From Chloroflexota bacterium (GTDB lineage: Bacteria > Chloroflexota > Anaerolineae > B4-G1): 39,750 nt of DNA. The stretch covers positions 1 through 39,750 of the forward strand of contig DSDT01000368.1 in assembly GCA_011048615.1 (NCBI GenBank), written 5' to 3'. A model generated the notes under the pieces. The model searched no databases. It was not told the origin of the DNA and saw only the letters and a list, made by a program, of their open reading frames with translations. The translations under genes and the position numbers were made by a program. This document shows, piece by piece, positions 3,318-33,743 of the stretch; the first letter of the stretch is position 1; every line of letters starts with the position of its first letter.

Positions 3318-3416
3318 TGGCGGGAGTGGATGGGAGTCGAACCCACCGCGGCTCGCTCTGCGCGACCCGCCACCGGTTTTGAAGACCGGGGAAGCCACCG
3401 GGCCCCAACCACTCCC
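3318..3416 (-). tRNA. selC: tRNA-Sec (anticodon UCA)
   Basis: Reverse complement GGGAGTGGTTGGGGCCCGGTGGCTTCCCCGGTCTTCAAAACCGGTGGCGGGTCGCGCAGAGCGAGCCGCGGTGGGTTCGACTCCCATCCACTCCCGCCA. 8-bp acceptor stem GGGAGTGG/CCACTCCC, 5-bp T stem, CTTCAAA anticodon loop, long variable arm, encoded CCA. Confidence 0.95.
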
Positions 3417-32461: not shown

Positions 32462-32601
32462 CTTGTCGTTCAGCAATTCCCGTTATGGAGTTCGTAGTAG
32501 CGACTTTAATCGCTGTTTGCGCAATAGAAGCGACTAAAGTCGCCACTACGAACGTCAAATGTGTGACGGCGATGCTAAAACGGGAATTGCTGCTTGTCGT
32601 T
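32462..32601. mobile_element. MITE (122 bp, 32471-32592) with flanking 9-bp target-site duplication
   Basis: TIRs CAGCAATTCCCGTT (32471-32484) / AACGGGAATTGCTG (32579-32592) perfect over 14 bp; inner arms 32490-32514 and 32529-32553 (23/25 match); direct repeat CTTGTCGTT at 32462-32470 and 32593-32601. Confidence 0.92.
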
Positions 32602-32627
32602 TGCGCAAAGCGGGGTATAGTTATGCT

Positions 32628-33743
32628 ATGACAACCCCATGGAATTCCGAGTTCCGCGTTCTTTTTGTGGAGCGGTTGTTGGCCTGGTTTGCCGCCCACG
32701 CTCGCCCGCTTCCCTGGCGGCAGGACCGCACCCCGTACCGGGTGTGGGTGGCGGAGGTGATGTTGCAGCAGACCCAGGTCAGGACGGTAGTGCCGTACTA
32801 TGAGCGGTTTCTGGCCCGCTTCCCCACGGTGCAGGCGGTGGCGGACGCGCCGTTGGAGCAGGTGTTAAAAACGTGGGAGGGATTGGGGTACTATGCCCGC
32901 GCCCGTCATCTGTACGCTGCGGCCCGGCAGATAGTGGACCGGTGCGATGGCCAGATTCCCGGCACGTTCGACGAACTGCTGGCCCTGCCGGGGGTGGGAC
33001 GGTACACCGCCGGCGCGGTAGCCTCTATCGCTTTTGGGCAGGACGTGCCGGCCGTGGACGGGAACGGGCGGCGGGTGCTGTGCCGCGTCTTGGATGTGCG
33101 GGATGATGTGCCCCGCTCGGCGACGCAGCGAAAACTGGAGGGTTTGACCCGGGACTTGTTGCCATCGGGGCGAGCAGGAGTATTCAACGAGGCGTTGATG
33201 GAACTGGGAGCCACGGTCTGTACGCCGCGGGCTCCCGATTGTGCCCACTGTCCGCTGCAGACACTGTGTCAGGCTCACGCGGAAGGCACCCCGGAGGCGC
33301 TGCCGGTGCGCCCGTTGCGCCGTCGCCCCCCTCACTATGACGTGACCGCGGCCGTCACGCTGCAGGCCGATGGGCGAGTGCTGGTCGCGCAGCGCATGCC
33401 CGATGACCTGCTGGGGGGGCTGTGGGAGTTTCCCGGCGGCAAACAGGAGGACGGCGAGACGCTGACCGAGTGCCTGGTTCGAGAGATGCAGGAAGAGATG
33501 GGTGTTCACGTGGAGGTGGGGGAGTCGGTGGCCGTCGTCGAGCACGCCTACACTCACTTTCGCATCACGCTGCACGCCTTTTGCTGCCGGTTGGTGGATG
33601 GCGAACCGTGTTGCCTGGAGTGCGCCGATTTTCGCTGGGTGACGTTGGGAGAATTGGACGAGCTGCCTATGTCGGTAGTCAACCGGAAGGTGGTCCAAGC
33701 GGTACAGGAGTTGGGTTGTGCTGGCCTGTTCGGTCGGCTATAA
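32628..33743 (+). CDS. mutY: A/G-specific adenine glycosylase with C-terminal NUDIX domain
   Basis: MLQQTQV, GLGYYARARHL, LPGVGRYTAGAVASIAFG, CTPRAPDCAHCPLQTLC FeS motif, GLWEFPGGKQEDGET...REMQEEMG NUDIX. Confidence 0.95.
   Translation: MTTPWNSEFRVLFVERLLAWFAAHARPLPWRQDRTPYRVWVAEVMLQQTQVRTVVPYYERFLARFPTVQAVADAPLEQVLKTWEGLGYYARARHLYAAARQIVDRCDGQIPGTFDELLALPGVGRYTAGAVASIAFGQDVPAVDGNGRRVLCRVLDVRDDVPRSATQRKLEGLTRDLLPSGRAGVFNEALMELGATVCTPRAPDCAHCPLQTLCQAHAEGTPEALPVRPLRRRPPHYDVTAAVTLQADGRVLVAQRMPDDLLGGLWEFPGGKQEDGETLTECLVREMQEEMGVHVEVGESVAVVEHAYTHFRITLHAFCCRLVDGEPCCLECADFRWVTLGELDELPMSVVNRKVVQAVQELGCAGLFGRL

Follow-up and report, generated by a model that had tools for sequence, protein, structure and literature searches.

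A multicopy Chloroflexota MITE with a REPIN-like pair of GTAG-tagged REPs at its core

An inserted element between a metallophosphoesterase gene and mutY

The DNA analysed here (the window) is a 39,750-nucleotide stretch of the Chloroflexota MAG G000, an assembly of 3.94 Mb in 425 contigs that is 92% complete. Between a metallophosphoesterase gene and the divergently oriented mutY gene of the window lies a 122-bp insertion that contains no ORF, and the coordinates of its parts and neighbours are listed in Table 1. The insertion is bounded by TIRs that pair at 14 of 14 positions and flanked by perfect 9-bp TSDs, and inside the TIRs two longer arms (32490-32514 and 32529-32553) pair at 23 of 25 positions. 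An earlier note on this DNA had described just such an intact MITE, with perfect TIRs and TSDs, no ORF and outer and inner inverted repeats nested in one another; all of these features were recovered, and the element proved to be multicopy. Elsewhere in the window (3322-3416, minus strand) a selenocysteine tRNA was detected (RF01852, 74.2 bits).

Table 1. Positions in the window of the MITE, its parts and the neighbouring genes
Feature	Position	Strand	Remark
Metallophosphoesterase gene, PF12850	31907..32398	-	neighbour, divergent from mutY
TSD, left copy, 9 bp, CTTGTCGTT	32462..32470	.	9-bp TSDs perfect in 58/85 copies
MITE, 122 bp, non-autonomous, CAGCAATTCCCGTT family, reading CAGCAATTCCCGTT ... 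AACGGGAATTGCTG	32471..32592	.	40 own-genome places; class-wide copies
Left TIR, CAGCAATTCCCGTT	32471..32484	+	same as right end of autonomous IS L173
GTAG-tagged REP 1, GTAG-TA-GCGACT-TT-AATCGC	32494..32513	+	one stem change private to this copy; AGTCGC in the others
Inter-REP loop with TTGCGCAA	32515..32528	.	unconserved among diverged copies (alignment)
GTAG-tagged REP 2, GTAG-TG-GCGACT-TT-AGTCGC	32530..32549	-	head to head with REP 1; REPIN-like dimer
Right TIR, CAGCAATTCCCGTT	32579..32592	-	
TSD, right copy, CTTGTCGTT	32593..32601	.	includes mutY -35-like hexamer TTGTCG
Predicted mutY promoter, TTGTCG-N16-TATAGT	32594..32621	+	TTGnnn-N16-TATAGT counterparts in two other genera
mutY, HhH-GPD + NUDIX_4	32628..33743	+	first ATG downstream of insertion at 32628

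The MITE sits within the predicted mutY promoter, a consensus match and not a mapped promoter, where the target-site duplication has doubled the -35 box. Counterparts of this promoter were read by eye in G001 (TTGCCT-N16-TATAGT) and G003 (TTGATC-N16-TATAGT). Since the TSD covers the -35 hexamer, the duplication leaves one correctly spaced copy beside mutY; the insertion would thus have split the intergene at the -35 region and at the same time restored the hexamer, and mutY promoter function was probably kept. When the two flanks are joined, they can be aligned without a break to the syntenic locus of G001, a member of another genus of this family that has no MITE there (1079 bp, 61.5%). A counterpart of the empty site foreseen in the earlier note was thus found at the level of genera.

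The whole MITE was found at 40 places in G000, with identities ranging from 100% to about 75%. As 23 of these places are contig ends, and two contig ends may represent a single insertion, we estimate 29-40 insertions; the family accounts for many assembly breaks in this MAG. When the 14-mer of the TIR was searched with at most one mismatch, 65 matches were obtained in G000 versus 0 for a reversed control pattern; with 40 places occupied besides, the element is not a product of chance. Among 85 non-redundant copies from several genomes, the 9-bp TSD is perfect in 58, has one mismatch in seven and two mismatches in two, and shows 5-9 in the remainder. The TIR, as CAGCAATTCCCGTTWT, is present in 19 of the 397 genomes of the class, spread over 17 genera (the reversed-pattern control was nearly zero), and homologous 122-bp copies, with the same REP pair (described below) and likewise with TSDs, were found outside the GTDB family of G000 (in G071, G191, G160 and the record PHCA). 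Named records that bear the TIR pair are all from Chloroflexota, mostly Thermoflexia bacterium G79. The further copies that the earlier note had anticipated in this genome and its relatives are therefore abundant, and its view that the insertion is comparatively recent agrees with the perfect TSDs and near-identical copies, which indicate recent movement. Overall, the element is short, non-coding, bounded by TIRs, dispersed in many copies with a TSD of constant length, and has an IS with matching ends, as is characteristic of a MITE. In these respects it resembles the bacterial MITEs Nezha and Chunjie, likewise described in a review as short, TIR-bounded, multicopy, non-coding and thought to be moved in trans; these have other TIRs and hosts, and the review's passages on them do not mention a REP pair as cargo (PMC10969869).

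Several variants were observed alongside the standard copies. Two loci of G160 (L161 and L191) hold longer, nested forms (270 and 276 bp) with extra palindromic inserts inside or beside the REP pair, and both keep 9-bp TSDs, one with a mismatch. At L113:33-491 (G006:C90) a MITE-derived end seemingly forms the C-terminus of a neighbouring ORF (ending ...EQQFPLWVKSQVVAAISQSRRVLYAG). Lone TIR matches in G000 and G006 were considered as ends of longer IS and set aside as MITE relics, truncations or chance.

A pair of GTAG-tagged REPs inside a stable hairpin

The inverted repeats that the earlier note had reported in the core are indeed there; overlooked was that they consist of two GTAG-tagged REPs, GTAG-TA/TG-GCGACT-TT-AGTCGC, arranged head to head. 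Each has the GTAG tag followed by 2 nt, a 6-bp stem and a TT loop, and the 119- and 116-bp size variants of the MITE arise where AGT has been lost from one or both of the REP stems. GTAG-tagged REPs are known as head-to-head short stem-loops with TY-type loops, and GTAG repeats have previously been reported in Chloroflexi (PMC3733652, PMC3116915). With its tag, short stem, 2-nt loop and head-to-head dimer, the MITE core has the same format as the GTAG REPs (PMC3733652) and REPINs (PMC3116915) described there, and, judged by motif and structure, we regard it as a REPIN-like GTAG-REP dimer. Whereas GTAG REPs and REPINs usually stand free or beside a RAYT, the dimer here lies within DDE-type MITE shells with 9-bp TSDs; an analogous association is that of the GTAG-15 dimers of A. 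variabilis, which lie within long palindromes (PMC3733652).

The head-to-head REP pair raises the possibility that the mobile unit is a REPIN or BIME moved by a RAYT (a Y1 tyrosine transposase) and that the outer 14-bp repeats are incidental, and G000 does contain a RAYT-like gene, downstream of which lies an inverted GTAG pair. However, the REPs that flank this gene differ from those of the MITE, being of the GTAGCCGGGG and GTAGCCCGGC types, and since it is the one Y1 transposase found in G000, no cognate RAYT flanked by the MITE-type REP was found in that genome. Moreover, nearly all of the 74 matches to the MITE-type REP in G000 lie within MITE copies (outside them, clear matches were seen on contigs C73 and C166 and weaker ones on C54 and C300), and the copies start and stop at the 14-bp TIRs, with 9-bp TSDs. 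To our knowledge, REPIN transposition does not predict 9-bp TSDs; the TSDs thus disfavour movement of the unit by a RAYT, which we consider highly improbable. The RAYT-like gene itself (L292:2262-2901, G000:C405) encodes a protein of 176 aa with a PF01797 domain and forms a REPtron-like unit with its REPs.

The MITE folds as RNA at -60.6 (plus strand) and -64.8 kcal/mol (minus strand), with z scores of -9.3 and -11.9, respectively, and 0 of 200 shuffles was as stable. As the earlier note had pointed out, and as the fold confirms, both mismatches of the inner arms become G-U pairs in a minus-strand transcript. The stability of the fold on both strands, these G-U pairs and the location between two divergent genes could be taken to mean that the long nested hairpin has been retained for a function, as an RNA or a terminator, and would be a domesticated regulatory element whose mobility is historical. 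Against this, covariation in the long arms of ten diverse copies did not exceed that of shuffles, and of the two G-U changes, A39 is seen in no aligned copy other than that of the window. For these two reasons selection on the long hairpin, raised as a possibility in the earlier note, is unsupported. Furthermore, the perfect TSDs and near-identical copies speak of recent movement, and Rfam has no family at the position of the MITE. A functional role of this kind is therefore very unlikely. The TTGCGCAA loop is found only in the youngest G000 copies, and the loops of diverged copies are unrelated to it. Covariation was confined to the REP stem, which shows a compensatory A-U/G-C change and scored higher than 498 of 500 shuffles; coming from ten related sequences, this is modest evidence.

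An autonomous IS with the same ends

Following the TIR outward led to a complete autonomous IS in the same class (L173:1619-3436 in G324:C266). This IS is 1818 bp long, ends in CAGCAATTCCCGGT and CAGCAATTCCCGTT (TIRs pairing at 13 of 14 positions; the TIR can be written CAGCAATTCCCG(G/T)T) and is flanked by the TSD AATGTTACC, perfect at 9 of 9 positions. It encodes an apparently intact DDE-type transposase of 433 aa (PF01609, E 3.9e-7), and pieces of related transposases adjoin the same TIR in four further genomes. NCBIfam gave a weak match to IS1634, below the cut-off, and comparison of the transposase with solved structures gave no meaningful match.

Homologs of this transposase are found on plasmids, annotated 'ISNCY family' in Nostoc, Gloeothece and Acaryochloris and 'hypothetical protein' in Legionella, Saccharobesus and Aureispira; the one on a Legionella israelensis plasmid is 50% identical. 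In tblastn searches, the ISNCY-annotated or unannotated cyanobacterial genes matched at 31-34% identity over 86-95%. Clear CAGCAATT ends were identified for three of the six plasmid homologs examined, namely in Saccharobesus (an IS of 1662 bp with the 9-bp TSD TAAATAAAG), Acaryochloris (1432 bp, with the 9-bp TSD CTTCTTTGA) and Nostoc punctiforme (1641 bp, with a 10-bp duplication), and around the transposases of Legionella, Aureispira and Gloeothece the end pair was sought and none was found. In an alignment of seven transposases, D124, D214 and E332 are invariant and would be compatible with a DDE triad. The CAGCAATT-ended 'ISNCY family' elements on the Nostoc punctiforme and Acaryochloris marina plasmids thus share with the present group a homologous DDE transposase, the start of the TIR and a TSD of 9-10 bp; they are autonomous and 1.4-1.8 kb long, whereas the MITE in the window has no transposase.

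A tblastn search with a relative's transposase detected no transposase of the CAGCAATT group in the 92%-complete own MAG. The earlier note had called for a transposase with matching TIRs, and one exists in the same class, within a complete IS of the same TIR and TSD length, none having been found in this MAG. Among other candidate partners, the three PF01609 transposases of G000 were rejected, their flanks being without the matching TIR, and so was the ISAs1 family, NF033564 being absent from G000 and G006.

Exchange of shells and REP pairs

MITEs usually originate from an IS by internal deletion, and since the TIRs of this MITE match an IS, it could be a simple deletion derivative of one such IS to which the REP pair originally belonged. 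However, the MITE and the L173-type IS have little in common beyond the TIR of about 14 bp, and no REP pair was noticed in the IS ends that were inspected. In addition, cores with no relation to one another, at least three in three genera, are found within these TIRs: in a sister genus of the same family (G006) the TIR shell and 9-bp TSD surround another GTAG REP pair, GTAGCCGCGATTT..AAATCGC, whose position with respect to the ends is not the same, a third core is present in G002, and a fourth occurs in G000 itself (contig C123). Conversely, the same REP type is held by a second, unrelated MITE shell of 151 bp, whose TIR reads CTGGA(G/C)TCTGGCG (also given as CTGGAGTCTGGCG) and whose TSDs are mostly 7 bp (e.g. 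ATTGATG and TATCAAT). This 151-bp family was found at loci L297-L301, L066, L075, L303, L304 and L308-L310 in G054, G004 and G006, host genomes that include other families. A simple deletion origin is therefore unlikely.

The combinations of at least two unrelated shells (with 9-bp and 7-bp TSDs) and at least two REP types, in differing genera, point to exchange of REP pairs between shells and genera, and REPINs thus appear, from these sequences, to recur as MITE cargo. To the broader proposal, that the DDE-type MITE shells of Chloroflexota repeatedly acquire REPINs, so that an unrelated DDE transposase and not the REPs' own RAYT can spread a REP family, we give even weight for and against.

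We conclude that the window very probably contains a recent insertion of a multicopy MITE, consisting of a shell with 14-bp TIRs, served by a DDE transposase in trans, and a REPIN as its cargo. The DDE transposase of the IS group with CAGCAATT ends and 9-bp TSDs would recognise the CAGCAATTCCCGTT TIR shell in trans, and the head-to-head GTAG REP pair would hitch-hike as cargo with each transposition, as passenger DNA amplified by the MITE. With no transposase of the group detected in the own MAG, we infer its source at this locus from the L173 group, a member of which would have acted in this lineage.

The closest precedents are the GTAG-15 dimers mentioned above and QMITE2 of Coxiella burnetii, a MITE of about 150-190 bp with TIRs, 7-11-nt direct repeats and an internal GTAG REP (PMC5896051). 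As far as its description goes, QMITE2 shares with the present MITE the TIRs, the direct repeats and the internal GTAG REP; it belongs to another host phylum, and that description names no transposase source (PMC5896051). Unlike for QMITE2 as so described, a parent IS was found here and REP pairs appear to be exchanged among shells and genera. What the present case adds is the identification of the parent group, together with the recognition that a REP pair is the cargo and that it recurs in more than one shell. In practical terms, the CAGCAATTCCCGTT TIR together with the TSD length provides a simple handle for finding autonomous IS in relatives. A MITE that is moved by a DDE transposase and carries a REP pair would offer a second, testable route by which REPs may spread, and may persist in genomes that have no matching RAYT.
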